A DNA stretch of 64,000 nucleotides from Hirudinaria manillensis (Eukaryota; Annelida; Clitellata; Hirudinida; Hirudinidae): the NCBI GenBank assembly GCA_034509925.1, contig CM067534.1, positions 6,536,001 to 6,600,000 of the forward strand, written 5' to 3'. Numbering within the stretch: position 1 is the first letter of the stretch; each line of letters begins with the position of its first letter. The position numbers and the translations under genes were made by a program. Positions 1 through 35,200 of this stretch are shown in pieces. The notes beneath the pieces were generated by a model. That model saw only the letters and a list, made by a program, of their open reading frames with translations, was not told where the DNA came from and did not search any database.

Positions 1-3000
1 TATAAGTGGATGGTGCTCATTAGCCATTACTGATCAAATAAATTACGGTGGATGTCAACAAGAGTCAGTCATTTTCAGCAAAATTCATAATTTCTTTAAA
101 TAAATACTTATTCATTAAATTTGTTCGCAGAGACGTCATGTGCGGTGCTCTCCAATGTAACACGAACGCAGCTTCTCTAGTCCGCTACACGAACTTTGTT
201 ATGCAAACCAATAAAAATATTGGCGGATTCGAGTGCAAGGGAAGTTTGCTGGATTATGGAAGCCGAGTGGAGAATCCAGGAATGGTGCCGAATGGAGCTT
301 CATGTGGATCTGGAAAGGTTTCTAAATTTTATTTCAAATTTTTTCTGAGTAATTCCAGTCATATTCTGTTTCACTCTATTTTCTGTTTACAAACGCTATA
401 GCAAAATTGTGTAAATGGTCATCAGATGACACTTCATTTTGTTTAGAAAAATAAATCATTAAAAATAAAAATATTAAAGTAATATTATGTATGTTAAATG
501 ACATATGATAATAAGTGATAAATTAGCATTCGTTATGTTAATATCATCATTATGTGTCATAAATCTTGTTATTCATACGTTTTGTTTATTGCTATGTAAA
601 TCAGTTACGTAATAATGATAAAGGAAATTGTCCCTATTTCGAATTTTGATCAGATGTGCGTCTCATCCAAATGTGTATCTGCCCAGTCCAAACTGAATGA
701 AAATCCTTGCCCACCTTGCGTCAATGGGGTTGGTTTAAAAAATGTTGTTATTTATTATTAAACAATTATACTATCAGAATAATTCTCTTTTAATTTATTA
801 GATTTGTGAATTCAATTACGCTGATATTAACGACAATTTAAATACATATACTTTAAAAAAGGTATATTAAACATTGAAACATTTGCTATGCAGTGTTGTG
901 TGGTCATTTATACTCAAACTTGACGATTGAATATTTGGATATAAAAAAATTAAAATTACAAATCCTGAACTGAGTGAATCTGAATTCATAACTTGTTTAA
1001 CAAACATTCAAAATGCAGAGCTGAATGGAAAGCACTTTTCCTTCGTTTAAGGCGTAAACCTCTTGTGACTGGAGTCATATAATAGACAATGTTTAATGAT
1101 ATAATCTCAATTGTAATCAAACGGGTCATATTTTTCCTCTCAAAGTCTAAAAGTCTAAATTGGAAGTATTTAAATTTAATAAATCATATCTTAGGTTTGC
1201 ACCAACGATGGTACATGCCTCTGCGACCCAGGGTACTTTGGCCCTGCATGCGACAATAATGGTAAGTTGTGGAGTGATGTTATATTTATAACTTTTTAAA
1301 TTTAAAATTCTTTTTTTCCAAACTTGTGACCGCATAAATTGGCCGTTTATATTGGTTGTAGTGACATATTTCTAAATAAGTAATATTATTTTAATGTCGA
1401 CCACTAGAAATATCATTTTAAGCCTGCAAATTAAAATTGGGAAGCCTGAAAAATAAAGCATAAATAGTTAAAAGTGTCGTAAAAGTGACACTATAAACTG
1501 AAATTAAAAATTTCGTAATTTTCGTAAAAATTCGTTTAAAAGTTAAATGAAATATTATGCATTATTATTACATCTTTCAATCTTTTGTGAACAACACATT
1601 TTGCATTTCACTAACTCAACAGGCCAAAATACTGGACTTCCAGGTAAATGGCTTATCAGAAGTCACTTCTCTTATGTTCTTTCTAACACGTTCAGCTTGA
1701 TCTAAACAATGGTTTTAATTTTAAGTTTTTTTATTTTAAGCTGGTTTGGTTTTTTTTAGTTTTCGTTTCTATTTTTATTTTAGTTTAGTTTATTTTTTTT
1801 TTTTTAGTTTTTAATCAGTTAAATCGGCACCAGAATTCTTTTCGATCACCATTTTCACTACTAACAAGAGTCTGCACGAATGTTGCTAACAATTAACAAC
1901 ACTTAACACTGGAAAACGTTTAAGTTCATATACGTTAACTCGTACTTTATTAATCAAATCATTTATTTATCAAATCATTTAGGAATCCCCACAAGAGGAA
2001 CCACCATAATGGTGTTGCCAGGTATTACTCGTAGAAATTAATTTTTTTTTGTGGTTAATGTTGTAAATGAGAAACTCATTTGGTCAGTCGCTTAATGTGG
2101 TTGTTTACCACGAACCAACAAATTCCCGTGTGGCAATATGAACAATTGCATATAAAATGTAAATTTAAAAAAAAAAACTAATAATTTTAATAATATTGGA
2201 ATAATTTATACTCAAAATGATTAGAATTTAAAAAAGAAATAAATGCACTTTATTTTGACTAGTTAAGTAAGTTCGTTATTAATGAAATCTAGATACCTCT
2301 ACTTCAACCACCACCACTACAACTACAACTACCACAACTACTACCACTTTATTACCAGGTATTATTAAAAAGAATTGTCCCTTCGTAATTTGCCCGATAT
2401 CGTATGTGGCTTTTCAAAAATGTGGCGCATAATATTTTAAATGCATCTTTATTCACGTCTCAACATGACATGCTCAGCTTATTATATTACTCTTAAAATC
2501 TAGAAACCACTACTAGTACTTCTACCACCACCACAACGACTACAAAATTACCAGGTATTGCTTCCAATATATGTCGTCTTAACTATCGAACATTCGGTTT
2601 TTTTGTTATAAAATCGAAAGAATGCAATTTAAAGAATATAAATTTATTGTCTTTATTCACGTCTCAACATGACATGCTCAGCTTATTATATTACTCGTAA
2701 AATCTAGAAACCACTACTAGTACTCCTACCACCACCACAACAACGACTACAAAATTACCAGGTATTGCTTCTAATATATGTCGTCTTAGCTATCGAATGT
2801 TTATTTATAAAATCGCAAAAATGCAATTTATAGAATATAAATTTATAGTCAAATTTGGTTTTATTTCCCTTATTTCCGTTTCTTAAACTTCTAAAAAAAA
2901 CTGTATTTTAAAATTTATTTCCATCATTTAGAAACCCCTTACCAAATATTCACAGTTCCAGGTATTTTACTGAATCGTCCTTTCAAATGATTATAAAACA

Positions 3001-5348
3001 CAATTTCGTAACCAGACCTTTTGATTTTATTATTGACGTAAAATTCTTATCAAAGTGGCGTTTTTTTAGCGATTTTTTTTATTATCATCACTTAAGGAAC
3101 TCCAAAAAGCAAAACAACAACTACCACCACCACTACTACCACTACTGTACCACCAGGTAGTAATCCCAGACATTCTATTAAAAGCCATTAAAATCAGGCT
3201 CGACTTTTATTTATTTATTTTTTAAATACCAAAACTATAAACATGCAATTAAACAAACAAATTATTTGTAATGTTTAGGACCCGCACCCACGGTTTACGT
3301 TTTGCCTACTCCAGGTATACTTGGCACTGTAAATTTAAATATTTTTACGATTAAGTTTTGTAAAGTATAAATCAATTATCGAAGAACCATTAAGTACTAC
3401 AACGTTAACCACTTTTATAGATAAAATAAGTTAAATAAATAATTTAAAAAAATTGTTAACAAAAAACTAAGAAACGTTTGTAATGTTTAGAATCCACAAC
3501 CGTCGATTCGAAAACTCCACATCCAGGTTCATACATGAATTTGAGCTTACCGAGATTATTCTTTGCTTTCTTAATATTACTCGAAAATGCCACTAATATT
3601 TCAGAAATCATGTTTCACCATAAATCGAATTATTTATAACCCATCGACCCTGCATTTATTCATTAGCTATTGTATTTAAACTAAATAATATTTGAGAATT
3701 ACATTATCGCCTTGAAAAGATGAGGCTATTGTTTAAGGTCGTGTTAAATTAACATGTTACATCTAACGATTCTCATGGATTTGTAAATTGTAAAACGTAC
3801 TCACAAGTTAAAGTTCCATTTTGTGCTGAAATTTAACAAGCACTCAATTGGAAATCAGAACTCACTTCAAGCTTCGTTAACATCTTTCTTAATTTATTCT
3901 TTCAAAAGTATAAAGTTATTATAAGTCTAATAAGTAAGCGTTTTAATGATTTCTAGATATATCAAGAAATGGCACTGCCCCTACTCCAGGTAATAGCAAC
4001 AATAGAAACATTAACTTCCACGGCTGATTAAAATGTTTTTCTAATAATAAGTCATATTTTAGAACTTAAATTTAATAATCCATCTGGATCTAAATAACTG
4101 ATCTAAGCATTTTTGGGTACATCTAACATCAGCAAAACAGGCTTCCCAGTTTCTAACAACGAATGTTTAAGAGTAATAATTTGTATAAGATTACTGCTAA
4201 TGATTCTCATCAGTGGTTTGGAATAGATAGTTAATGTAGATAGTCGGTTAGATAGTATCTTGATTCTACATTGTAGATACAATTTAATAAATTGTAATTC
4301 TATTTGTATATAACATTGTGCATGTGACCATCTGAAACCTCGACATCAATTTTGTTCTTTCAATATTGATATAAAATTTAAATTAATTTATTATTTACAG
4401 TTAAATTGTGAAAAATTGAATGGATTTATTATATCATATTCCCGTAACTTCAAACCTTTCAGAGCCGTCGAAATCACTCTCTCCTGGTGGAATCATTGGA
4501 ATTATATTTGCATTAGTTGTCATTCCAATCATAATAATTGGGATAGTACTCGTCTGCTACAAGAAGAATCTCTTGAAAAAGTACTTAGATCAAATTAGAT
4601 AATAATTTTAAAAGTTTATTAATTAACGTTTATCTTTGTTCTTTGCATAAGAATTCCACGACTGCCGAATAAAGTTGCACCTGGCTATCTAGAGAAAAAT
4701 GCCAACATTGGCAATCGTTCTGGTGAAGAAAACCAAGCCTATACTCCTGATGCCAACATCAGCATCATTTCAGGAAACGATCCGATAATTCTAGAGAAGA
4801 GTGGCCGTAATTCGTATTACCCTCCGAACGAAGAGGATTGTTACGATTGCTACGCCAACATCGATTCCATCAAAATCGTCGCAAATGGCAACGTTAAGAC
4901 TTCTTTCGCACACCTAAAGCCCTCCAATACGCCCTGGAAAATTAATTTCCCTCCAGACGTCATCCCCCCTACCGCCACAGTACTTCCAGTACCGGCCCAG
5001 CATCTGAAACCACGTCTGGAAAATTCCGTAAAGAATGCCTCGAAACCTGCACCGCCATCTCAACGTCTGAAGCCCACCGTTCGAGCCCCTCTGGCCCCGA
5101 GTTCATCGGTCACCAAACCTCCTCTTCCACCAGCCTCTGCGAAGCCACCTTCTAGGCCAAAGTTTCCACCAAAGACTGCTTTGGTTACTCCACCCCTTCC
5201 ACCGACCTTTCCGCCGAAACCCAAACCCGTCAGGCCGGCACCGCCTAAGCCGGCCTCCCAATCGACCAAACCCGATGTCGTCGAAGAGGTGTGTTCTGGT
5301 GACGTGAGAGGCCTGAAAGCGATGTTCGAAAAGGACAGTATAGTCTGA
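1..5348 (+). CDS. ADAM metalloprotease gene 1, 3' part (cysteine-rich, EGF, stalk, TM, tail)
   Basis: The window opens inside this gene, so the prodomain, protease and disintegrin parts are missing. Proposed exons: 1-63, 131-317, 654-728, 1195-1261, then micro-exons 1623-1643, 1983-2021, 2293-2358, 2504-2554, 2708-2761, 2932-2961, 3097-3156, 3279-3314, 3491-3526, 3957-3989, the membrane exon 4463-4580 and the tail exon 4652-5348. All junction phases agree. The first exons encode the ADAM cysteine-rich domain (motif DVMCGALQC) and an EGF-like module (VCTNDGTCLCDPGYFG). The micro-exons encode a Thr/Pro-rich, probably O-glycosylated stalk. One hydrophobic segment follows (GIIGIIFALVVIPIIIIGIV). 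The cytoplasmic tail of about 230 residues is packed with PxxP stretches typical of SH3 ligands in meltrin-type ADAMs. A polyadenylation signal AATAAA lies at 5391. A tandem paralogue follows. Family assignment is firm; the orthology group is not determined. Confidence 0.88.
389..456 (+). repeat. Dispersed repeat copy A, AAAT-tailed
   Basis: An approximately 65-base element containing CAAAATTGT, GGTCATCAGATGA and TTTTGTTTAGAAAAATAAAT lies in the ADAM-1 intron. Two related copies occur at about 13846-13919 (same strand) and 18357-18449 (opposite strand). The A/T-rich end carries an AAAT run. The shape resembles a short non-autonomous element, but no family is recognised and no target-site duplication was defined. 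Confidence 0.65.
1623..3989 (+). other. Array of ten phase-1 micro-exons encoding the ADAM-1 stalk
   Basis: Ten successive exons of 21, 39, 66, 51, 54, 30, 60, 36, 36 and 33 nt lie between the EGF exon and the membrane exon. Each is a multiple of three, starts and ends in phase 1, and ends in CCAG followed by GT. Each begins by completing a split Gly, Glu or Asp codon and mostly holds Thr, Pro and Ser (for example TSTSTTTT). Any subset can therefore be skipped without shifting frame. This is read directly from the sequence; actual use in mRNA is inferred. Confidence 0.82.
2447..2852 (+). repeat. Tandem 204-bp duplication of intron plus stalk micro-exon
   Basis: The unit 2447-2650 is repeated at 2651-2852 with few changes. 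The match covers intron sequence before the exon, the exon itself (2504-2554 and 2708-2761) and intron after it. The second exon has one extra triplet. Both copies keep the splice sites and reading frame, showing how the stalk array grows. Confidence 0.88.
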
Positions 5349-6497: not shown

Positions 6498-7277
6498 GGC
6501 TGCCTATCTCTTTCTTACTTAACTTATTAAAACCTTTTCGTGCAGTATATGAGATCAGTGAGTCTGAGATCAGAAAAAAAAAATATAAGGATTAAAATAA
6601 ACTTTATTTTTATTTTATTATTTAATATTAATTTCAGTATTTGGATCGTGAGTAATTCTAGAATTAACTAGAACTTCCTCAAATATACATAAGTTGAGTC
6701 ATGAAAATCACTTGTCACGACAAAAGTCACGACAGTAAAAATATATTTAAAAAATCTTTTGATTTTATTCAATAAAGCGATTGATATGATGACGATTCAT
6801 AATCTGGTTGGTATCGATTGACACTGATTGATGCTCTCATACCTCTTTAACCTGAGTATAAGTATCCACCTCTAGAAATTACCACAGACTACGTAATACT
6901 ATTAGGATTTGAATATCATCTTCACTTTAATAATTATCTAACATTAATTTTAATTTAACTAACAGCTAAAATTAGCTGCCGTGACAGAAATTGTCGGCCG
7001 AAAGAGATTCGCCCAGAAAGGTATATGTCCATATCAACTCATTTCTTGGTATTTCATAGAAATTGATAACAATAATGACACAGTGAGACAATGGAGTAAG
7101 TTTACTTCCGCTCTTAAAATTCCTTTAAAGGAAGGCACATTAAATATCGTGACCACAGAATTAATATTCATTCAGATATACGGTCTTTAAAAATCTTTAA
7201 AAATCAAATTTCCTAGTTCAGTTGTTGCTAACTGGCGCTTCTCAGAAAGGTTATTTGCCTGAGTTAGCGGTAAAAAC
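5349..7277. other. Intergenic region between the two ADAM genes
   Basis: This AT-rich stretch holds the AATAAA signal of ADAM-1 (5391) and a (CT)n microsatellite near 6458-6496. No credible coding exon was seen. A 69-codon frame at 6981-7190 lacks splice or family support. Confidence 0.6.
6458..6496. repeat. (CT)n microsatellite
   Basis: A nearly pure CT dinucleotide run of about 38 bases lies between the two ADAM genes. Nothing indicates a function. Confidence 0.9.
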
Positions 7278-10200
7278 ATGTCAAAGAAATGCAAGATTAA
7301 CAGAATTATATTAGTGCTGGTCTACTCATTGTTCTTAACCATATCATGCTGTCATCGGTTGCACGAGATATCTGACGAAGGTTGGTTCGGGAACTTTTCC
7401 AGGCTAATAATTTCGATAGCATGGAGGTGACTTCATAATTTTTTGAAATGCAATATTTATTTATTCATTTATTTATTTATTATTAAAGTAAATCATAATA
7501 AATGAATCAGAATTTGGTTCTCAGAAGTTTTTTCTAGCGTCATTAAATACAATGTTAAAGATTTCAATTTAGCCGATGACATGAATCATTGTCATCCTCT
7601 TGATTATCCTCTTAGCTTTGCCGATGCTCACTTACTTCTGAAATGTCCAATTATTTTTTGTTTATTTTCTAAATAAATTGCTATTCATTAATCACTCAAA
7701 TATAATTCTAATTATAATAACAATTTACTTTGCTTATCTATTGAAATAAAACGATAATATCATCGGATTACTCGAAATAATCTAAATAAATAAATAATTC
7801 ACGAACGCGAATTTGAATCAATATTGATTTATGTTTTCAAAACTTCCTCTTTATCACTTATTAAACAATTATAATTATTTCAGAACTGAAACGGGAACAT
7901 ACCAGAGATATCAGCGTCCTAGTAAACGGACAAAAGGTTTTTACTACTATAATCAATGTTGGTATATGTTTTAAAAATTCTCAGAATTTTTTAAAATAAT
8001 TATGGCCATAAATATTGTATTATATTATTGCATTAATTATACTATTATTATATTAATTAACTAATTAATCTAATTATTATCAATTATTTGATTAATCATC
8101 CTAGCACCAAAATGAAATTTAATTTTTTCAGGGAGTCCACCAACCTCGCATCAGCATAAATCTGACATTCAGAGACATTTCCTACGTTGTTGAACTTACG
8201 AAGAATAAGTAAGTGTTAATATAAAATTATGTGTATTTGTTAAATATATATAATTTATGATAATTATGAGTTTTTTATTAAATATTATTTGGTCAACGTA
8301 ATTATGAATCGTGTTAAATATTATTTTGAAAGCTATCTCTTGTCACCAAACTACGTGGAAAAGATCATCAATGGAAGCAGAGTCATTTACAGACGCGTCA
8401 ACCAAGTCGGTAAAATCTTTTCATCATAATTTATATTTATTTGTATTTATATTGATTTATATCCATATTAATTTATATTAATTTACATTTATATTCCTAA
8501 GTTTCAGTGCCGGAATTGGTGTTTTTATGATAAGCTTTATGAAAATTTTGGAATATAGATACAATGAAAAGTTTATAAATGCTGGTTTATGCTCAACAAA
8601 CTGTATGGCATGAATTGGTTTTTATTACAATAAATCTTTGACTTATAAAGAATAAGAATTATCAAAACTTAAGATGAGAATAAATATCAAACTGATTAAT
8701 AAATCATTGTCAGAGCCAAGAATTGTGTTATTATCACGGATTGGTACCCAACGCGGTCCATTCAAGTGCAGCCTTCAGTACGTGTGAAGGAATTAAGTAC
8801 GTTCGATTCACGATCGTTGTTAAATCGGTTTAGTCACGACTTCCCATTTTTCAGACAATTGAAATGCATGTATAAAGCACTTAGAAATAGGAGAAGAAGA
8901 AGACGTTATGAATGTATTTGGTGGCATTTTACGAGGGTTCCTTGCCATAACGCAAGATTGGTTTCGAACACGACACCTAACTGCCGCAGAGTTCAGGAAG
9001 GAAACCACATATAGCGACGATCGAATTCTGAGAACCTTCATTCAGTCAGAGAACGAATGCCAAGCTTGATAATGGCTGTTCGATTGTAGGATGTAAATAA
9101 TATAACATGATAAAAAGTAGTAATAATATAATTATAACTCTTATAATTATTCTTCTGAGGCAAAAAAATGCCCCCATTTGTCAATATCGTCATTAATTGA
9201 ATTTTGCTGAGACGCAAACTAAGATCATCGTCAAACATATACATCCAGTTTTACCACTTTGAAATCCTGTTTATACGACAGATTACATTTACCCATATAA
9301 TGATATTAATGGTAATTTTAGACTAAAAACATTATTAATCACGATTTCAAATAATTTATGAATATTTCCAGAGGTTTCTTCGTTCTCAACAACTCGACAT
9401 TCCACATAAAACCTGTTCAACTGGATTCAAATTCCTCTCTCGTTGGATTGTACGAAATCAAAAAAGCAAACAACGACCATTTGTCTCAGTGGATTTGTGG
9501 TGAGTAACTTCATTAAATCCATCACTCCATGTCAACGTCGATGGTGAAAGCTTCCGAGGAAGCCAAAGGTTCTACTAGAATCAATATTTAAATTTGCACA
9601 TTAAAACCATACATTCATAATTCATAATTCATAATTCAGGTGTGAATGAATTAAAAGCCAAGTTCAACGACATAAAACCAAAGAAAAGGGTAAACTGATT
9701 GACTTGCACTGTGTTCCCATTCTTCTTCAAACAGAAATATTATTTAATAAGCGAAATATTATTCAACAATTAATTTCTAATTATAAATTTGATCATGTCT
9801 CATATATTACATATGAGAACATCGTGTTTCTAACTAAGGTAAAACGTCAAATCATTCCTGATTCTCTGGACGGAAAGAATGTTGTTGAATTGTACTTGGC
9901 CAACGACGAACGGAGAGTAAGTGAACCTCACAAATTCACATCACATAAATGTGAATTATGAACACGTAGAAAATATTTTGTAATAAATTATCAAAATTAT
10001 GAAGAAATTAAATGAAGGTAGTAGAAAATAAATGTAATAAATTAATGCTTACAGCATATAAAAATGAATTCAAATAACATGAAACTAATAATTATTACTC
10101 TTACAGCTAAGATACTTCAATAATGATTACAACTCCTTGAGCAGGAGTACAAGAGAAATAGTCAACGCAGCCAACTTGGTACGTGAATCACAAACTAGAA

Positions 10201-13200
10201 ATAAAAAAAAACTGAAATAAAATTTCTTTAAAATAAAATCAAATCATTTTTCTTCCAGTTATACCAACCTGTCGGTTTTTTTATTGTATTGGTGGGTGTT
10301 GAACATTGGCAAACTGATCAGATAGAAGTTGTAACAGATTCATCCAAAACGCTGAGTAATTGGCAGAGCTACAGAACCAAATACGTTCTCAACAACCATT
10401 ACAATGACGTTGGCTTCCTTATCTCGTGAGTTGATGATGAAGGAAAAATGTATGAAAATAATTTTTTTTTTAATTTTTAGACAATTAGTTTTTAACAATT
10501 TCTAGGAGACAATCTTTTGATGCCAGCGTGTTGGGCCTTGCCAGTGTTGGAACAATGTGTAGCAGTAAAAATTCGGGTGGAATTATGACGGTGCATAACA
10601 TTTATTTAAATATATTTCTTTGCGGCATCGTTACCGCTTGTAGCCTCAACTTTGTTATTCAATTTATGAATATGTACGCCCTGTACAGTAATAGTTACGA
10701 TGTTTCAGGCGATATTAGACAAATCGGCCGTTTCTGGTGCCATCTTAGCCCACGAAATAGGACATAACTTTGGTCTTAGCCATGATGCCGCCGATTGTTA
10801 CTGTCAGAGTTCAGATGTTTCATGTATCATGAATGCCAGAGCCTCGTAAGTTTGAAAATGGAATTTAACTCTGGAGGAATTATAACTTAACTACAATTAT
10901 AACTTTAATTGACTGGAATATATCCAATAATTCACATTTTTACATTTGAAGGACAGACAGACCAGCTATGTATTTTTCTGCTTGTTCAAAATCTCAACTG
11001 AGGACATTCATAGACAAAGGTAGATTGAAATATTATTATGTCCATAGACTTTTCAAATCATTAAACTATGAAACATTTTGTATAAATTTTTAAATTTACA
11101 ATTTAAACAAAGGTTTCGACTTATGCCTGAAAGACTTTCCATTGAATCTAAACGAACACTCTCCTGTTTGTGGTAACGGAATCTTGGAACAAGGAGAGGA
11201 TTGTGACTGTGGGAGAATGCCATCAGATGTAATACTTTAAGTTTTGCTTGAAGTATCGAAAGTATTGTACATGTGCATAATTTATCGATGATATATTTTG
11301 AAATAGATAATATCTGGATAAGTTAATGTCTAATTTAAATTTTAATGCTTAGGCCGTCACGCCAAATAAAAAACTTGTTGTAATAATAGCTTTTTCTAAT
11401 AAATGTTAACTGATATTTTTATAACGTCAGCAATGCAATCCATCGTGTTGCAATCCATCCACCTGCAAATTGATTGGTTCAGCCCAATGTGCCAGTGGAT
11501 CATGTTGTGAAGTGAACTCTTGCCAGTTGAAACAAGTCAACAAACAATGCAGGGCATCCATTGGTCCATGCGATCTTCCTGAAACATGCGATGGAAGTTC
11601 AGCCTTTTGTCCAAAGAATGTTTATAAACATGATGGAATGAGTTGTTCTCTTGATGGGGTGAGTAACTGTTTTAATTTAGTTTATTATTTATTTTAAAGT
11701 CTTTTCAGATTTTTTTGTATTGGAGATAGATTAAATATATTAAATAGATTAAATAAATTACATTTTTATATCGAAATACTTTTTCAACTTTAATGTTTTA
11801 AGTATTACAGGGTTTTTTTATAATAAATTCTCTCTTCCACCAGATAGATGCGTATTGTTGGAAAGGTATGTGCAGAACTCACAGGTCACAATGCCAGGAA
11901 TTGTATGGTTCCAGTGTCTCGGAAGGCGATCCCATGTGTTATCAGGTTTACAACCCGTTGGGATCCATATATGGATGGTGCTCATTATCCATTTCTGATC
12001 AAATAAATTACGGTGGATGTCAACAAGAGTCAGTCATTTTCAACAAAATTCATAATTTCGTTAAATAAATACTTATTCATTAAATTTGTTCGCAGAGACG
12101 TCATGTGCGGTGCTCTCCAATGTAACACGAACGCAGCTTCTCTAGTCCGCTACACGAACTTTGTTATGCAAACCAATAAAAAAATTGGCGTATTCGAGTG
12201 CAAGGGAAGTTTGTTGGATTATGGAAGCCGAGTGGAGAATCCAGGAATGGTGCCGAATGGAGCTTCATGTGGACCTGGAAAGGTGATGTTGCAACTTGGC
12301 TCAAATGGATTATTTAGACGATTAGTTCATTGATTTACCTTTCTGAGCTGCTTTGAGTACATCATGGTGTTTCTGTGTTTTACATTTTGAATAGGTGTGC
12401 ATCAACTCCAGGTGTGAATTTGCTCAGTCCATACTTTCTCAAAATCCATGTCCTTCTTGTATGCACGGAGTTAGTACCAACTAAATCATTTGGAGATCTT
12501 ATAATCAAGGACGAATGACCCGTTTATTATAAATCTACATGTATAACATATTTATTTCTAATCAGATAATTTATTTTACGCTTACTCTAGATCATGGTAT
12601 ACAAACGTTTGGATTGACTATCAAATAGCTGTTCGGGTCGTGGTTTGGGGACCCCTGCTCTAGATATTCACTTTTAAGCTTCATTATGTTAAATTAGATG
12701 TAAATGTGAACATTAATGTAATATGCTAAGATTCTTGAATTTCTCTTCAGGTTTGCACTAACCAAGGAACGTGTCATTGCGATCAAGGTTATTGGGGTCA
12801 TTCGTGTGAAAACGGAGGTATTATTGCGCTTACAACTTGTCTTATTCTGGAATTGATATTCCAGAGCTGTTTAAAAATAATTAATTAATAATTATCAATT
12901 CAGATTAAACATGCCTTAAAACGTTATCAAAAGTCACATAACAAATACGGTTTAATTAAATTTATGGAAAAATAAATACTTTAAAAGATGATTACAAAAG
13001 GAAGATTTTTTTTTATTTCAATGTTGCTTCTACTCTTCACCGTATAATTTTCCAACATTGGCGTTTGATTTTTTTAATTTTATTTTACAAAATATTAATT
13101 ATAAGTTATTTTATATATATTCGTAAACTTTGTGTTAAAAGGAGATTCGATATTGAAGCAGATAATACAGAAACGCCAACCACACCTTATCCATCAACAT

Positions 13201-14850
13201 CAACAACCACAGAAACTCTTCCAACATCAACCTCAACATCTCTTCCAACAACCACAACATACTCATCAACAACGACCACAAGAGCTCTCTCATCGTCAAC
13301 AACTGAACCATCTCCTTCATCATCAACATCCACAGGATCACTTTCAACACCGACAACAGCTTCTTCTTCAATAACCACAGAAAGTCGTCCAACATCGACC
13401 ACAACATCTCCAACAACTACAACATATCCTTCCATCTCTCCAACAACTTCAACATCTTCTTCAACATCAACAACTGCAGAAACTCTTCCAACATCAACCA
13501 CAACATTTCCAGGTTTTGCTTGAAATTTTTCTATATTTTTGCTCGTCCAATTTCGTTAAAGCAAAATTGAGCAAGAGCTCCAAAATTAATTTGTAATGTT
13601 GCCATTTGTGCAATTTAGGATCCACTGATTTTAATGCCTTCAACACAAGTACAGACGTAGCATCAGGTATTTTTTCTTATTGTTAAGCGCAATTTTTAGC
13701 CAGTACTAGTACTGCTGATGCAAGTACAACATCCGCATTATCAGGTCTTATCACGCACATTATTATATTATTGTTACATTATTTGATCATGTCTTTAAAT
13801 TAGAATCATCTATAATCTCTATTTTTTGTTGGCAATTGTTATTTGTTATTTTACAAAATTGTATAAGTGGTCATCAGATGAGCCTTCATTTTGTTTAGAA
13901 AAATAAATAAATAAATAATGACACAAAGGTGAATAAAAAACGATGCCTTCTGCCTTCATAGCTATAATTAAGTTGTGCTTCTTCTTTCAGACAACACAAC
14001 TTCCGTTCTAATATTCCCAACCAGAGGTAAATAAATAAATTTAATTTTAATCGTAATAATAATAATAATTAATTTGGACTGAAGTGTATGATATCATATG
14101 TAATTGTAAATATTTGCTGACAGAATCTTTACATTGAACCTACATTGAACGTATAAGGTTTTAAAGGTTGTAATTTAAACAAATTTCAGTTGAAGCGGCA
14201 CAAACCTTTCCAGTAGGTGGGATTGTCGGACTGGTGCTTACTGCAGCGGTGGTCAGCTTGCTTCCGGTAGGCGTGGCTTACTGGTATAAGAAAATCTACC
14301 TGGCAAGATTTGTGAATAGCATGAGGTAATTTACAGTTTTCTATCTCTTAATGACTTCCTGTTTGGCAGTCAACTCGAGTTTTACGTTTTTAATAATAAA
14401 TAATTTTGCTACAAATTATAAAGATATCTATTTTAACACAGATATTCAATCAATAACAGATTAAACAAGGGAGGGTCTATAAAGATTAAACCAAGGTTCA
14501 AAGTCTTCAGTGGCCATCAAAATGGAGCCTATGTTCCCGATGCCTTTCCCAGCAACATGGCTTCCATAAACAATGTTACTGTTCCAAAGAAAGGCATTTC
14601 GAAGATGAGTTCCCCGAATGTTGATAAGTCGCGCAGAGATCTGGGTTCGCCTTTTGAACTCACAGACGAATATAGTCAGACACGTTTTCCAAAACCCTTT
14701 GTACCGGCATCTTCGGATGTGTACCATTCTACCTATGCTCCATTTGATCTTCCACGGGGTTTTAGGCCATACCTTGTCCGTGGTCCAACAACCTTCCTGT
14801 CGCCTCGGGTGCATCCTAATCTTAACTACCAGTTTCCTGGCTTCCGCTAA
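7278..14850 (+). CDS. ADAM metalloprotease gene 2, complete, catalytically intact
   Basis: About 25 exons give a protein near 1015 residues: 7278-7380, 7884-7936, 8132-8208, 8333-8405, 8714-8796, 9372-9499, 9640-9689, 9839-9916, 10107-10178, 10259-10425, 10506-10590, 10709-10845, 10952-11019, 11113-11228, 11431-11658, 11844-12028, 12096-12282, 12395-12469, 12751-12817, 13171-13512, 13619-13666, 13700-13744, 13991-14026, 14190-14325, 14442-14850. A hydrophobic signal peptide starts the protein. The prodomain has CYYHGLV and a cysteine-switch-like WICGVN, followed by a furin-type RVKR. The protease has the zinc site HEIGHNFGLSHD and Met-turn CIMNA, so it should be an active membrane sheddase. 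Disintegrin, cysteine-rich, EGF, Thr/Ser-rich stalk, one TM segment and a 136-residue tail follow. AATAAA is at 15112. Exons 2 to 5 in the prodomain are the least certain. Confidence 0.9.
13171..13512 (+). other. Long mucin-like stalk exon of ADAM-2
   Basis: This 342-nt exon is Thr/Ser/Pro-rich and has the same phase-1 borders as the ADAM-1 micro-exons. Three more small symmetric exons (13619-13666, 13700-13744, 13991-14026) precede the membrane exon. The paralogues thus build equivalent stalks from different exon layouts. The 5' border was chosen for frame and for similarity to ADAM-1 exons; its acceptor is weak. Confidence 0.65.
13846..13919 (+). repeat. Dispersed repeat copy B, AAAT-tailed
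   Basis: This is a second copy of the element at 389-456, in an ADAM-2 stalk intron and in the same orientation. It ends in a run of AAAT units (AAATAAATAAATAA). Confidence 0.68.
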
Positions 14851-22571: not shown

Positions 22572-24962
22572 TCATTTTCCTTTTTCGTCAGTGTCCTTGC
22601 TGGCTTTGTCTTCTGCTACACTTTCGTTTTCTTTGATGGAAGCAGAGCCGTCTCCGGAATAAGAGACCATGGTTTTGTACGAAAGAAGTCTTTCATTTTC
22701 GCTGCTGTGGTGGATCCCATAGCCGAAGTAAATCAGAAAGCCTGTGATTGTACAACATCTCGCATAAATTCGCTGTCGATGAAACTGACCGTGACAGGCA
22801 ATTGCATGTTTCCACAGGTGATGAACAGGTTTTACTACTGATTTATATTAATGAATTTTGAGAACTTCTAGTGTATTTCTTTTTATGTGCCCTTGCATGT
22901 CACCAGGACATCAATAGCGATGTGTTTATTACGAAAACAAGGTAACAGCTTCAGTCAAATTAACATTAACATATTTATGATGCGTTTGATAAAAAGATTG
23001 GTATAAACAGAATCGGTTTATGAACCTATGAAATATTTCTATATATATAATTTTATCAAATGGTGATATTATTTGAAAGAAAGCAACTTAACTACTAGGT
23101 AAACACAATACAACATAATAAGAAAAATAATAACCTATAGCCATCCAGACAGCGAATCGCACCATGGTCCAATGGCTGAGTTTCAGAATGAGACCAATAT
23201 TGATGACCAAACTAACGACTGGTATCAGAGGAACAAATGGTACCTGGATAAGATAAATGGGAAATAATTAAATTGATTTTTTTAAAATAAATATTACCAA
23301 TTGGATTACTAAGCTCCAGACTATTTAGGCAAGTATAATAAATTAGTTTCTCCATGATGAAATTACCTGAAACGTCAAGAAACTGGTGTTTTGTTCGTGG
23401 GTATATAGCAAGAAATAGGACAACAAAAACCCAATGCTTAAGATGATAAGCAATAGGATTATCCACCATGTTTTGTCTATAACCATGTGAGTGGCATGCA
23501 GAAGTATCAGCCAGATGGAGGTACTAAAGATGACCATGAAAAACGTACTGATGAGGGCCATGTTACCGGGAGGGATGGACTTGAGTAAAGGAAAATTCAG
23601 AAATCTTTTCTTTAACTTTCCAATATCATCGTGGCTTTGGGATTCTTTTACTAGTTTCTTTTTATCGGCATCATCCTCACTGATGGAGTAAGTTGAGAGG
23701 TCTGGTTTTAGCTGGAACTGGCAGAGGCTCACAGGCTGATATCGAAGTACGATGACATTTATAGAGACTATTGTGAAGCAGAGCAGAGTGCCTATAGACA
23801 GCAGTTCGACCAACAGTTCTAAATTTGCAATCAATGCCAGCAAGGAACAGATCAATCCAAAGAATATCACTGAAAATATAGGTGTCTGAGTTTTTGGATG
23901 GACGTAACCAAACCATTTAAATAATAAGCCGTCATCGGCCATGGCGTACACAGATCTCGAAAGAGAAAACAGACTGCTTATTATGGCGGAAGACAGTCCA
24001 ATTAGGGTACCGATGGCTATGACACCGGTCGCCCAGTTTGCACCCTGTGCCTGGAGGGCAGCTGGAAAAGGAGCGACGACGTCAACTTGCTTGTAGGGAA
24101 CCATTAAAGTTAGTGAGGTAGACGTGCCAACGTAAAGGATGATGACGAGAAGAACCGAGATGCTCAGAGCAAGGGGAATGTCTCTCGATGGATTTTTAGT
24201 CTCTTCGCTGACGATGGCAATTGATTCGAAGCCGGCAAAAGCAAAGAAACATGTGGCAGATCCTGTCAGAACACCTGAGAAGCCATAAGGAAGAAAGCCT
24301 CCTTCGTGGTCATTTTTCCAATTGGAAATACGGGCAAAGTGGAGACCCAGACTGATGACGAGTAGAAGCACCGCAATGTTAACCACCGTCAGAAGGTTGA
24401 TGAAGGTGGATGATAGCTTAGCACCTCCAGCGATGAAGATGGTCCAAAACAGAACGCAGCCAACTGCCACGAAATCCAAATATTGGAATAAGCCTATAAA
24501 TTCAAGTCTGCCAATGTGTTCGATGGTCCCATTACTTATGGCTCCCTTGACCAGAACGTCGAGAGAACCGCTCCAGGCCTTAGCAACAGACGCACACCCG
24601 ATTATGTTTTCCAGCATCATGTTCCAACCAATGATGAAAGCGGCAAACTCTCCGATTGTGATGTAGGTGTACGTATAAGCTGAACCAGCCTTTGGAACCT
24701 TGGATCCGAACTCTGCGTAGCACAGAGAGGATAGGAAGGCGGCGAATCCAGCAAAGATGAAGCATAGGATAACGCCGGGGCCGGCAACGTCCTTGGTTAC
24801 AGTTCCCGTGACGACGAAGATGCCAGCCCCAATCATGTGCCCTATGCCAAAGAGCACGACGTCGAAAAGGTTCAGACACCTTTTTAGCTGGGTTTCCATA
24901 AGGTTGTCTTCCAGAGTTTTCTTCCTGATTAGCTTTTCCGCGAAAACTTGCAGACGACTCAT
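22572..24962 (-). CDS. SLC7A: Cationic amino acid transporter paralogue A (CAT/SLC7A1-4 type)
   Basis: CAT proteins are 14-TM plasma-membrane carriers for arginine, lysine and ornithine. Reading on the minus strand, exon 1 is 24962-23367 (532 codons), exon 2 is 23243-23135 and exon 3 is 22741-22572, giving 624 residues, the usual family size. The N-terminus has RKKTLEDNLMETQLKRCLNL before TM1, and TM1 contains the APC signature GIGHMIGAGIFVVTG. SVAKAWSGSLD, PYGFSGVLTGSATCFFAFAG and VHPKTQTP are family-typical. The small exons encode the last TM pair (VPFVPLIPVVSLVINIGL, FAVWMAIGFLIYFGYGI) and a hydrophilic tail. Intron positions equal those of paralogue B at 28366-30581. Substrate specificity cannot be read from sequence alone. 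Confidence 0.93.
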
Positions 24963-28365: not shown

Positions 28366-30581
28366 ATGTCCGACATGCATGAAAGTTTTTTCAGAAAGAT
28401 AAGCCGTAAGAAGACTCTGGACAAAGACCTTATGGAAACCAAGTTGAAACGATGTCTTGGCCTCTTCGACCTGGTAATGATCGGAATCGGCAACATGATT
28501 GGAGCGGGTATCTTCGTCGTCACCGGTAATGTCACGAAAAACGTGGCTGGTCCGGGCGTCATAATCTCATTTGCATTGGCCGGTTTTGCTTCCTTTTTGT
28601 CAGCATTGTGTTATGCCGAGTTCGGAGCCAGAGTTCCAAAGGCAGGTTCGTCTTACACTTACACATACGTTTCTATTGGCGAACTGACAGCCTTCATAGT
28701 CGGTTGGAACGTCTTATTGGAAAGTCTGATAGGGGCCTCTTCCGTGGCCAAAGCCTGGAGTGGATCTCTGGACGTCCTCGTGAATGGTTCCATAAGCGAC
28801 TTCACCTTGACCCACATCGGCAGCCTCGACGTTCCCCTTATATCGCCTTATTTAGACCTCGTTGCATTCGCAAGCATCATGTTTTGGGTGATTTTCGTGG
28901 CAGTTGGAGTCAAGTGCTCGTCAGGATTGATTAGCTTTTTCACCTTTATAAACATTGCTGTGCTCATCTTGATCATCTCCTTGGGTTTTTATTTTGCAGA
29001 CTTTTCCTACTGGAAAAAAGATTTTCTACCGTATGGCTTTTCCGGGTCGGTTGCCGGATCGGCATCGTGTTTTTATGCTTATGCCGGCTTCGAAGCTATC
29101 GCAGTAGCTGGCGAGGAGACCAAAAATCCGTCGAGGAACATTCCATTGGCACTAGGCCTATCTGTCTTCGTGGTCACAACGCTATACCTCTTGAGTGCCT
29201 CTGCTCTGACGTTACTGGTTCCATATAAGACGGTCGATATCGTGGCACCTTTTCCGACAGCTATCCAGGCTCACAATGTAAACTGGGCCACCGACATTAT
29301 CGCTATAGGATCGCTCATTGGTTTATCGGCTTGTCTCATCGGTAGCCTCTTCGGGATGCCAAGAGCAGTTTATTCGATGGCTTCTGACGGCTTGCTCTTC
29401 AATTTCTTGGGCTACGTTCATCCCAAAACTCAGACCCCTCTGACCGCCATCATAATATGCAGCATCATTTCCTCTTTCATGGCCCTTCTCATAGACTTGG
29501 AATTTCTGGTAGAACTTTTGTCAATTGGCACGCTACTGTGCTTCATCATCGTATCCGTCAGCGTGGTCATCCTACGATACCAACCGGCCGCAGCGTGTCA
29601 ATTCGAACTGAAAGGCATCGGACAGGTCAAGAACTCCAGCAACCAGGATTTGGAAAACGTCGGAAGAATCAGACGAAAGTATCATCGGTTTCACTTTCTC
29701 GACTCGATACCTCACGGCTATTCGGGACCTGTGGGAATCCTTCTGGTAATGGTTTTCTCCTCTGCGGCCTGGTCTGTAATTCTGTACGGCATGGACCTTT
29801 TGCTACTGAAATCGTGGTGGGCGATCTTATTGCTGGCGATGTCCTGCTTAGGATTCCTGGCATCGTATCTCTTTCTCTATCTGCACGAGGAGAATAGGAG
29901 CTTCACCACATTCCAGGTAAATTCCAGTATTTTCCATAAATATTTCATAATTTGCATTTTAATCGAGACTAAAACTCTTTTAAAATACTAGTACCAAAAC
30001 TATCAATAACTACTATTACTATTACTGTTATTACTAAAAACCCTACAGAATGTTAGTAACAAGACAAAAATTAATCGCATTAGATCCATCATAAGGAACA
30101 TGCTAAAGTGTTAGTAATATAATGTAATCCAATATAATGTAATCGATGTAACTTCCAAGACTCCATTCGTGCCTCTGGTGCCCGTGTGTAGCATCACCGT
30201 GAACATCGGCCTCATGATGAACCTCAAGGGTTGGACGTGGCTCAGACTGGCCATTTGTATCCTCATGGGTGAGATTATATATATATATATCCCTATACCT
30301 CTTGCATTGTATACATTGTGTATATATTTTTGTAACCAACAGGACTTTTCATTTACATCGGTTACGGAATAAAACACAGCAAAGAAAGCGAAACCTTCGA
30401 ATTCTATCATCGGATGGTCACAGATTCTGACGAAGAACGTGACTTCATGACGAAGGAAACGACTGATGATGATGATGATGATGATCGTGGTTGTGGTGCT
30501 GATAATGATAGTGATGGTGGTGGTGGTGGTGATGGCGGCGGTGATGATGGTGATACGAAAGAAAATGAAAATCCAAGTTGA
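28366..30581 (+). CDS. SLC7A: Cationic amino acid transporter paralogue B (CAT/SLC7A1-4 type)
   Basis: Three exons, 28366-29916, 30160-30268 and 30343-30581, encode 632 residues. The first exon holds the N-terminus (KKTLDKDLMETKLKRCLGL), the signature GIGNMIGAGIFVVTG, SSVAKAWSGSLDVL, PYGFSGSVAGSASCFYAYAG and VHPKTQTP. Exons 2 and 3 carry the last TM pair (TPFVPLVPVCSITVNIGL, GLFIYIGYGIKHSKES). The intron positions and the 109-nt middle exon match paralogue A, so the two are duplicates that now lie about 3.4 kb apart in opposite directions. The tail is odd: seven Asp codons (GAT)7 followed by Gly/Asp runs, apparently grown from a microsatellite. The stop is followed five bases later by a long TAA repeat. 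Confidence 0.94.
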
Positions 30582-32290
<1,709 letters not shown>

Positions 32291-35200
32291 ATGGATTCGA
32301 CTGTGAACAGTGATTTCTTACTTCTCAGAGAAACAACATTGAATCCTTACGACAATACGACACCGGTGTTTGGAAGTGCTTATCAGGAGCCGATGCTGAG
32401 CCTCGTGGACATCCTCAACATCTACCTCATTCCTGTCATCATTCTCGTCGGAGTGGCAGGGAATTCGTCCGCCTTTGTCGTGCTTATGGTGACTCCGAGA
32501 TTGTTCTGCCAGAGTTCAAACATGTACCTGGCATTCCTCGCCATGGTGGACAACTTGTCTCTCGTTTTCGTGATGACCGTTTGGCTCGGTTGGGTAGGCA
32601 TCAATTTTTTCCATAAGAACGGGTGGTGTCAGGTCATCAATTACTTTGCCTCAGTCTGTAGTTTTCTCAGCGCTTGGACTGTAATCGGTGGGTTGTTTCT
32701 GACGTGAAATGCTTAAGAGAAAATAAATTGAGATGAAATGAATAGAGGAAATGAATGTATTTATTTCTCAAAGGACGTGATGAATTTCGAATGAATTATT
32801 CCTCCCGTATTATAAATATAGATATAAATTGTCAGTTTAATTTTAAAACGTTGACATTTACATTAAAAACATTGCAACATTCTTTTGGTTTCTAAAAAAA
32901 ACAAATAATAATAATAATATCACGTTTAAAAAATGTATATATATTCAATTTTAAGGTTTCACTTGCGAAAGATGGGTCACCATATTCCATCCCTTGAAGC
33001 GCCACATAATTTGCACGAAAAGGAAAGCATTGATTATCATGACCTGTCTGACCCTAGGCTCGATGACCTTTTACTCTTTTACCCTTTTCATTTACAAGGT
33101 CAAGACTTTTCCTAACGGACGGGAGGTCTGTCTGATGGTCTACAAGTTTTTAATCCTTTCAAAGGTAAGGAATGCCAATTTGTTTTTGCTTTTGTTCTAT
33201 ATTTCAGTGGGTTAGGGTTAGGGTTAGGGTTAAGGATTAGGGGTTATGGTTAGGGGTCAGGGTTAGGGGGTTAATCCAGAGAACTTCTGAAATTTTTAAG
33301 ATTAAAGAAAATGATTTTTAATTCGAGATTTTGTTTGAACGTGGTTTAAACTCAAAAAGCTGAAGAATCAAATTGAAGGCAAATTGCCTGTCATTTTACA
33401 AAAGATGAAGAAAACTTAGAGTTGATTGACGCGATCATCATCAACTGAATCCGTTCCACGGAAGTGAAATGACTACGATGATTACATCACGATGACATCA
33501 TTGCAATCGTGAAAATGAAACTTAGACTTTTTGAGATCTCTAAATAATTCACAGGTGAAAAATCAGCAAATTCCCAACAAAAAAAATAAGGCTGTTGCAA
33601 TTGGATGGAGTAGAGTGATTGTTTATTTAAGCTAATTCATATTTAATACAATTTAGCATTTTAAGCCTGTTTTGATTTTATGAGACCGATTTGATCCAAT
33701 TAAAACATTGGCGAAGATTAAATTAAACATTCTGCCTCTTTTATAATTTATGACCAGAGAACCCTAACACTAAACCTAACCCTAACCCTAACCATAACCC
33801 AAACACTAAACGTAACCCTAACCCTAACCCTAAACCTAACATAACCCTAAGTTATAAGTTAGTTATAAAGCTGTTACTACAAATCCATGGCTTTGAGATG
33901 ATTAATATTAACATTCATTTATCAAAAACGTCGCAATTTTTGCAATTGAATTCATAAAAAAAAAGAAAAACACGTCTCTTTCGAAAGGAATTGTGCACCA
34001 AAACTCAGAAGATTTTTATACGAATTTTTTGTTTAAACAAATTTATCTCAGAATAAATTGAGTTTCTTACTGTAAAGGATAAAACTTGTTGAGATCCGTG
34101 AGCAAAGAATCCACAAAACAGAAAAAACATTTGCGTGTGAAGGACATCTAACTTCACAAAATGAAAGGTGAATAAATTATGAATTAAAAATTAATAAAAG
34201 CTATTTTTCGAAAGCTTAAGAACATCTTCAATGACAAGATTTTAAAATCCCCTAAAAAATCTCTTCCAACAAAAAGAAACCTCGACTTGAAAATTATGAA
34301 TCTGTTGTTTGAAGTCTAAAGATAGGACCACAATTAATGTGTTCTTTCAATAAAATACTTGGAGAAGGATTGAAACGATTTTTCAAAAATCTAAAAATAG
34401 TCGTACGACCGCGTCCACTCGGCATGTAATCCGCAGGAGAGATGGGGATTAATAACTGATTAGGAAATAATTTTAGAACTATACATTAAAAGTTAATTAT
34501 ATGACAATTTAAATATTAATTAAGATCATTATTGTCAAATATTATTATTAATATTAATTATTATTTGAATTTATAAACAAATATTACCACAGAGTAATGT
34601 TATATTTTAACATTGCATTTTAATCCTTATTATTTAAGATAATAATCACTTCACGAGGGTGTCTTCTTACGATATTCTTATTTATTTATTTTTTTGTTAC
34701 ATGGAAAACTCGCCGAAAGTGTAATCAGAATATAATTTAGGGATTTCCATTTCAGATCGCTTTCTCTTTCGATACGTTACTCAACGTCGTCATGCCTCTC
34801 GTCATCATCATCACCATGAATTTCGGAATGGCTTTGAAAATCTGGCTGTACACGAGAAGGAACAGCAAGATCCAATGTATCCTGAGGTCTCAGACGAGTT
34901 TGGCCAAAAGCAAGGAATCGCCCGGCAAAGGCTTGGCTGGAAAATCAGGCGATTCGAACGCGATGAGGGACGGACTCTCTGAATGCGACCACCTGGAATG
35001 TCTCGCACGTGGTCGTGCTTCGATGAAATGCCACTTTCATCGTCGTCTGAACTCAAAGACCTCAAATGTTCAGAGGTGCCCCAAACGTTCAGTGACGAGA
35101 AAAGGTTACTCCCTCGGAAAGGGCAGCCATTTTCAGAGCCAATCAAAGGTGATCACCGCAGACGAGCGAAGATTAAATGCAGTTAAAAATTCTTCGTTAA

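Follow-up and report, generated by a model that had tools for sequence, protein, structure and literature searches.

How does a gene come to hold a long row of very small exons between the domains of a protease and its membrane anchor, and what can the cell do with them? This question is raised by a stretch of 64,000 nucleotides from the leech Hirudinaria manillensis (contig CM067534.1 of assembly GCA_034509925.1, C9:6536001-6600000; hereafter the window), which begins within a gene of the ADAM family. On sequence grounds this gene, here called gene B, lies between two tandem sister genes of the same family, A and C, and its 5' start is upstream of the window. The original prediction for this DNA had been that ten consecutive in-frame micro-exons between an EGF exon (1195..1261, phase 1 end) and a transmembrane exon (4463..4580, phase 1 start) build a mucin-like stalk, and that any combination of them could be skipped or included. 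Gene features are given in window coordinates and lie on the plus strand; the genome searched comprised 148.4 Mb on 23 contigs. Taken as a whole, the results are best explained by a membrane-anchored leech ADAM whose stalk arose from gained mini-exons and is made in one main form plus a few skipped forms, a reading to which we assign a probability of roughly 0.55.

Ten symmetric mini-exons in the stalk of gene B

Between the EGF exon and the transmembrane exon, the boundaries of ten exon-like blocks could be fixed, and their earlier description proved correct. The blocks measure 21, 39, 66, 51, 54, 30, 60, 36, 36 and 33 nt and thus range from 21 to 66 nt; all ten are multiples of three, start and end in phase 1 and close with CCAG in front of a GT donor. 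Together they amount to 426 nt or 142 codons without a stop. Each was obtained by boundary analysis and by the chain search described below: mini-exon 1 (GQNTGLP) at 1623..1643, mini-exon 2 (GIPTRGTTIMVLP) at 1983..2021, mini-exon 3 (DTSTSTT...LLP) at 2293..2358, which has the weakest acceptor among the ten, mini-exon 4 (ETTTSTSTTTTTTTKLP) at 2504..2554, its duplicate mini-exon 5 (ETTTSTPTTTTTTTTKLP), differing in length by 3 nt, at 2708..2761, mini-exon 6 (ETPYQIFTVP) at 2932..2961, mini-exon 7 (GTPKSKTTT...VPP) at 3097..3156, mini-exon 8 (GPAPTVYVLPTP) at 3279..3314, mini-exon 9 (ESTTVDSKTPHP) at 3491..3526 and mini-exon 10 (DISRNGTAPTP), with the sole N-glycosylation sequon of the stalk, at 3957..3989. 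For micro-exons the length limit is usually set at about 27-51 nt; by this limit the exons of 54, 60 and 66 nt are no more than small.

The predicted mucin-like character of the stalk was borne out by its dense threonine, serine and proline content: these residues make up 93 of the 142 (64 Thr, 20 Pro and 9 Ser). Threonine tracts occur in four exons (3, 4, 5 and 7), and the remaining six consist of 29-58% Thr, Ser or Pro. The 64 threonine codons are mixed (ACT 26, ACC 22, ACA 13, ACG 3), a spread more in keeping with selection for the residue than with a plain triplet repeat. From this composition, the stalk is probably O-glycosylated and stiff.

The array clearly exceeds what chance would produce in DNA of this composition. 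In the interval 1262-4462 (3.2 kb), CCAGGT occurs ten times, compared with a mean of 0.234 and a maximum of 2 in 500 dinucleotide shuffles; open phase-1 blocks running from an AG to CCAG/GT number ten as well, compared with a mean of 0.064 and a maximum of 1. Across 37 further 3.2-kb tiles, taken from both strands of the window, no tile held more than two such blocks. A chain search was applied to the same region, in which donor, acceptor and codon scores were combined, with the two ends fixed in phase 1 and the inner phases left free; the splice scores were derived from the three tandem genes, with the sites of the array left out, and the codon scores from genes A and C. At exon penalties of 8, 10 and 12, all ten blocks were returned with exact ends. 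Penalty 0 gave 18 exons and penalty 4 gave 16, each set containing eight of the ten, and nine of the ten, without extras, were found at penalty 15. The runs at penalties 8-12 each time added a block at 4108..4164 (AFLGTSNISKTGFPVSNNE), a doubtful eleventh phase 1-1 exon with a donor score of -2.8 and without the CCAG end.

The chain score of the real region was 115.6, and the best of 100 shuffles reached 28.3. In 34 other window tiles, the search chose exons divisible by three in 110 of 316 cases, about the chance level, so the complete symmetry of the array was not imposed by the method. The chain-search total itself was rejected as proof of the array: five of these 34 tiles outscore it, with values of up to 167.8, and they probably hold longer exons. 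What distinguishes the array is the presence of ten small symmetric exons and not the total. By all sequence tests, the array appears to be a real and uncommon gene structure that follows an ordinary phase logic.

Splicing, growth and competing explanations

The expectation that any combination of mini-exons may be skipped holds true for the reading frame: each of the 1024 possible subsets reads through to the membrane segment in frame and free of stops. G is the last base of the EGF exon and of every mini-exon, giving phase-1 boundaries of the form G/NN, and since every upstream exon contributes the same base, the residue encoded at any junction stays unchanged. The subsets allow 119 stalk lengths from 0 to 142 residues. 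As far as the exon structure indicates, ALTERNATIVELY splicing of the array is permitted. Phase symmetry was considered as evidence of alternative splicing and discarded, because it is a trait of the whole family: each of the 16 stalk exons modelled across the three tandem genes is phase 1-1. When exons are gained within an intron of phase 1, this is the expected outcome, since an EGF module that ends in phase 1 and a membrane exon that starts in phase 1 leave room only for symmetric exons to be added singly. Among the six of genes A and C, some ends were picked, within a few bases of positions selected by eye, from several candidates because they keep the frame (alternatives are 56 or 64 nt for the second exon of A and three starts for the long exon of C), and the symmetry of these six is weaker evidence than that of the ten in gene B.

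The splice sites of the mini-exons are weak. Donors average 3.78 in the array and 6.45 at 45 reference sites from the gene cluster (Mann-Whitney p 0.008); for acceptors, the averages are 2.73 and, at 49 reference sites, 6.59 (Mann-Whitney p 1.4e-4). In nine of the ten, neither site ranks above the 31st percentile of the reference; exon 1 is the sole mini-exon with a donor near the reference median (53rd percentile), and the lowest summed scores belong to exons 3, 5 and 4, i.e. to three of the four threonine tracts. The reference includes gene C sites transferred to A and B at a match of at least 66%, and three acceptors and two donors of gene B that were added by inspection; a few of its sites are probably wrong (the lowest donor scores -4.8), an error that would lead to an underestimate of the weakness of the mini-exon sites. 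Weak sites would permit skipping, as expected of cassette exons, and could also reflect relaxed constraint.

As to the growth of the array, exons 4 and 5 are, judging by their alignment, the product of a recent tandem duplication of an exon with its introns. The upstream introns agree at 57 of 58 positions and the exons at 50 of 51, with a 3-nt indel that is the only exon indel; the downstream introns are identical at 83 of 92 positions, with 11 gap columns. Weaker hints of a common exon origin come from GTATT donors, which follow exons 2-6 (5 of 10) and only 1 of 45 reference donors (Fisher p 4e-4, with exons 4 and 5 not independent), and from the last 14 intron bases before exons 8 and 9, which are identical (14/14). 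On another contig, two stretches (C3:7127176-7127277 and C3:7133619-7133699, L037) match mini-exon 3 at 75-80% identity, from the intron through the acceptor into the first part of the exon, and are devoid of a GT donor; they may have arisen as copies that decayed, or may be the source of the exon-3 unit.

We propose that the part of gene B between the EGF module and the membrane segment was lengthened by newly gained small exons of phase 1-1; tandem duplication contributed at least once (exons 4/5) and probably more often. In a transcribed gene B, as we infer it to be, the ten mini-exons would be translated into a Thr/Pro-rich stalk of 142 residues that, probably O-glycosylated and stiff, would hold the protease and disintegrin domains away from the membrane. 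With all boundaries being G/NN in phase 1, the loss or gain of an exon would change stalk length and glycan load only. The main transcript would carry most of the exons, and a few forms would skip weakly spliced ones, with exons 3, 5 and 4 as the first candidates by summed score.

Several observations weigh against this reading. The acceptor of exon 3 scores -2.08, below all 49 reference acceptors, and could mark a poor or dead exon. The long stalk exon of gene C also has a weak donor (-0.54), so weak sites are not specific to cassette exons. The introns of the array are short (122-473 nt), and short introns usually favour intron-by-intron splicing and therefore the inclusion of small exons, which would argue against skipping. 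Concerning the origin of the exons, a genome search in which simple repeats were skipped revealed no second copy of the whole array, only short matches to threonine tracts and exon 3. Exons 4 and 5 are no more alike than their upstream introns and thus give no sign of selection on the exon, with too few sites to show constraint. Intron similarity does not point to a single common ancestor for all ten exons, as flanking introns are clearly similar for 4/5 only: among 66 upstream-intron pairs, four reached p 0.01 (4/5, 5/6, 2/9 and 3/10), of which 5/6 reflects the 4/5 duplication and the last two lie just at the threshold, and among 55 downstream-intron pairs 4/5 alone reached it.

The same short introns, which by the above principle favour inclusion, suit a stalk of fixed length in which the ten exons are always included and their small, symmetric form records growth by exon gain. 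Such a stalk is also consistent with the uniform phase of the 16 exons modelled in the three genes, which gain within a phase-1 intron requires, and with the donor of the long gene C exon, which shows that weak sites need not mean skipping; it does not fit well with the nine mini-exons, out of ten, whose donor and acceptor both rank in the bottom third of the reference sites. We regard a fixed stalk as possible and rank it below a main form with few skipped variants. Free combination of the exons is possible as well, without being the likeliest outcome. An origin in a blood-feeding annelid, independent of the schistosomes, of a symmetric mini-exon array whose exons are combined randomly or by tissue, yielding a tunable glycan spacer of 0-142 residues that varies protease reach, substrate choice and shedding between cells, appears unlikely to us.

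Two further explanations concern the fate of the entire array. In-frame stops occur in each of its 11 introns, the first after 6-48 codons, so that retention of any of them would end the protein before the membrane segment. By such retention, or by cleavage of the stalk, a soluble mucin-tailed protease might be freed, and the array would then mainly set the balance between membrane-bound and soluble enzyme. The threonine-rich tail of gene A, where no membrane segment was found, points in this direction, as does a published study in which metalloproteases of families M12 (including M12B/ADAM), M13 and M28 are described as the major enzymes in the salivary secretions of three species of Hirudo (PMC7191736). 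Stops are, however, expected in any AT-rich intron, and a salivary role of gene B was not indicated by this analysis; we consider this route improbable, and it is compatible with the preferred reading of a main form and few skipped forms. The least probable account is that the blocks are relics or chance and the EGF exon joins the membrane exon directly. These two exons are in frame when joined, the splice sites of most blocks are weak, and degenerate exon-3 copies that lack a GT donor are present on another contig. Yet ten CCAG/GT blocks stand against a shuffle maximum of one, 142 codons contain no stop and use varied synonymous threonine codons, and Thr/Ser-rich open stalk exons occupy the same place in both sister genes.

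If the exons are indeed combined, the length of an ADAM stalk would be set by splicing, and gene B would offer a natural series for the effects of protease standoff on substrate choice and shedding. Even with fixed splicing, exon multiplication can be seen at work in this gene: two neighbours that are 97% identical over 313 bases upstream carry the same kind of stalk, built from ten small exons in gene B and mainly from one long exon in gene C. Public RNA reads of Hirudinaria manillensis (SRR15881191-SRR15881251) are reported to exist, in addition to head RNA from the study that quotes them (PMC10671345).

Gene B, its sister genes and the surrounding window

The assignment of gene B to the ADAM (M12B) proteases follows from a Reprolysin match in exon L011:8852-8986 (E 1.7e-8) together with the zinc site HExxHxxGxxHD, readable in the DNA of gene B as HEIGHNFGLSHD and found in the translation of gene C too, and from matches to Disintegrin (E 4.6e-15) and to ADAM_CR in the cysteine-rich exon (C9:6535882-6536085, E 7.7e-10). 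Within the window, a further exon of the cysteine-rich region at 131..317 was transferred from sister gene C and holds the second half of ADAM_CR (E 0.024, below the Pfam cut-off). The first half of an EGF-like module at 654..728 was aligned with a sister exon of equal length (its end bases match at 0.67 and 0.63), and the EGF exon at 1195..1261 matches EGF_Teneurin (E 7.1e-7) and EGF_2 (E 5.8e-5), both above the Pfam cut-off. Downstream of the array, the transmembrane exon encodes the hydrophobic segment GGIIGIIFALVVIPIIIIGIVLVCY and ends in a donor at 4580 with a score of 4.6. It is followed by a proline-rich cytoplasmic tail exon that runs to the stop (4652..5348), with an open frame of 231 codons, 44 of them for proline, and a weak acceptor (0.1). 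Gene B thus has the EGF half-module, membrane segment and cytoplasmic tail of a membrane-anchored ADAM. The tail exon had no Pfam match at E 0.1; it contains NQAYTPDA, for which the counterpart in gene C is NGAYVPDA. From protease to EGF, the frame of gene B is open throughout the 14 exons read (1643 nt), and the comparison of these exons with gene C gave a ratio of nonsynonymous to synonymous substitution rates (dN/dS) of 0.28 and no stops, so that the proteases of both genes look functional. An intron of gene B contains, at L011 about 6850-7600, a stretch that resembles a retrotransposon with a poly-A end when read by eye.

Gene A lies on the same contig, C9, with its ADAM_CR match at 6520.8 kb; a Thr-rich exon of 279 nt is followed by a 60-nt exon and by a last exon in which no membrane segment was found. 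Its tail at L010 6288-7139 is Thr-rich and has KPTTTT repeats. By these features, gene A may encode a secreted mucin-tailed protease. Gene C was followed in frame from 8714 to 14850; exons 5' of 8714 were placed, with an inconsistent frame. Its stalk exons (about 13162-13512, 13619-13666, 13700-13744 and 13991-14026) are all phase 1-1 as modelled: a Ser/Thr exon about 351 nt long, then small exons of 48, 45 and 36 nt, after which comes the membrane exon. The 48- and 45-nt exons (13619-13744) are only about 33 nt apart, a gap too short for a normal intron, and they may be mutually exclusive, or one of them may be false.

Over 313 bp (7-319 vs 11972-12284), one intron included, genes B and C share 97.4% identity; this stretch spans the exon at 131..317 and ends two exons before the EGF exon. 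Across nine B-C introns, identity varies from 75.5% to 98.9%, a mosaic that suggests recent gene conversion. A blastn comparison of the B and C stalks gave no match longer than a threonine tract or short repeat, and the stalk appears to be a fast-changing part of the gene. We further surveyed the 3' flanks of 22 ADAM_CR matches, a lower bound for the genome, over up to 4.3 kb each (three were shorter, with 3219, 4233 and 4277 bases). With CCAG/GT as the criterion, by which arrays with other exon ends could escape, none of the other 21 had more than two blocks, so that the array was seen at one of the 22 matches surveyed. It is unusual in having been seen in only one gene of the three-gene cluster. 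In nine of the 22 regions, including those of A, B and C, one or more open stretches of at least 45 nt were rich in Ser, Thr or Pro. The six matches outside the cluster with such 3' stretches are L014, L024, L030, L034 and others (on C1, C13, C5 and C10); mucin-like stalks may therefore not be limited to this cluster.

Some features of the surroundings are recorded here in their own right. Telomere-like GGGTTA/AACCCT repeats occur inside the chromosome at window 33209-33269 and 33760-33850 and at L010 about 5028-5143, and one such block sits in an intron of gene A. A perfect ATA microsatellite of 60 units lies at window 30585-30765. Two similar long, uninterrupted open frames at 23343-24962 (minus strand) and 28366-29991 (plus strand) look like amino-acid transporters when read by eye. 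Elsewhere in the genome, a partial hirudin-family match (positions 17-42 of 64) was above the Pfam cut-off (E 5.8e-6).

Comparison with known systems

ADAM15 and other ADAMs with proline-rich tails share the domain order of gene B, namely protease, disintegrin, Cys-rich region, EGF module, membrane segment and Pro-rich tail. Small exons of ADAM15 are alternatively spliced, in the cytoplasmic tail rather than in the stalk. In the open-licence PMC literature, among the matches listed and in the portions of text available, no description of a micro-exon array in an ADAM stalk or in a leech gene was found.

The likeness to the micro-exon genes (MEGs) of schistosomes, to which the original prediction had pointed, is confirmed in so far as all ten exons are consecutive, small (21-66 nt) and symmetric. 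MEGs are characterized by runs of symmetric small exons and by disordered, Thr/Ser/Pro-rich chains with predicted O-glycosylation, and MEG-14, -29 and -32 are membrane-anchored (PMC4671649, PMC10526429, PMC4015677). Gene B resembles them in its small symmetric exons, its Thr/Ser/Pro-rich product and its blood-feeding worm host, as well as in the membrane anchor of some members. In contrast, MEG products are mostly small proteins (about 10 kDa on average for head-enriched ones), with micro-exons providing up to 75% of the coding sequence and introns of up to 5 kb, whereas the array of gene B is one segment of a large ADAM in an annelid. Its 426 nt compare with 1643 nt in upstream exons and about 0.8 kb in membrane and tail exons, and a large multidomain protein with a membrane segment and introns of 122-473 nt differs from a small secreted product with long introns. 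As both features, coding share and small product with long introns, are lacking, we do not file gene B as a MEG.

Among the systems compared, the nearest structural parallel is SmVAL6 of Schistosoma mansoni, in which a conserved domain is followed by small, alternatively used exons that give about five isoforms, a number stated in the review both as a minimum and as a maximum (PMC4015677). Gene B has the same plan, with conserved domains in exons of normal size and small exons after them. SmVAL6 is, however, a secreted venom-allergen-like protein and not a membrane-anchored protease, and its small exons are reported as alternatively used, whereas those of gene B are candidates for such use. 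Should the exons of gene B be used in a similar way, micro-exon arrays that encode O-glycosylated surface proteins would have arisen a second time, and independently, among blood-feeding worms.

In function, the array would rather resemble the variable region of CD44, in which a series of variable exons (v2-v10 in man) lies in the membrane-proximal ectodomain and gives rise to isoform-specific glycosylation (PMC10722200). As in CD44, the exon series of gene B is placed between the ectodomain and the membrane segment, and it can be removed in any of its 1024 subsets without loss of frame. CD44 differs from gene B in being an adhesion receptor for which alternative splicing is demonstrated. The CD44 variable exons are larger than the mini-exons of gene B. 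The weak splice sites of the latter are no more than compatible with cell-type-regulated inclusion of the CD44 type.

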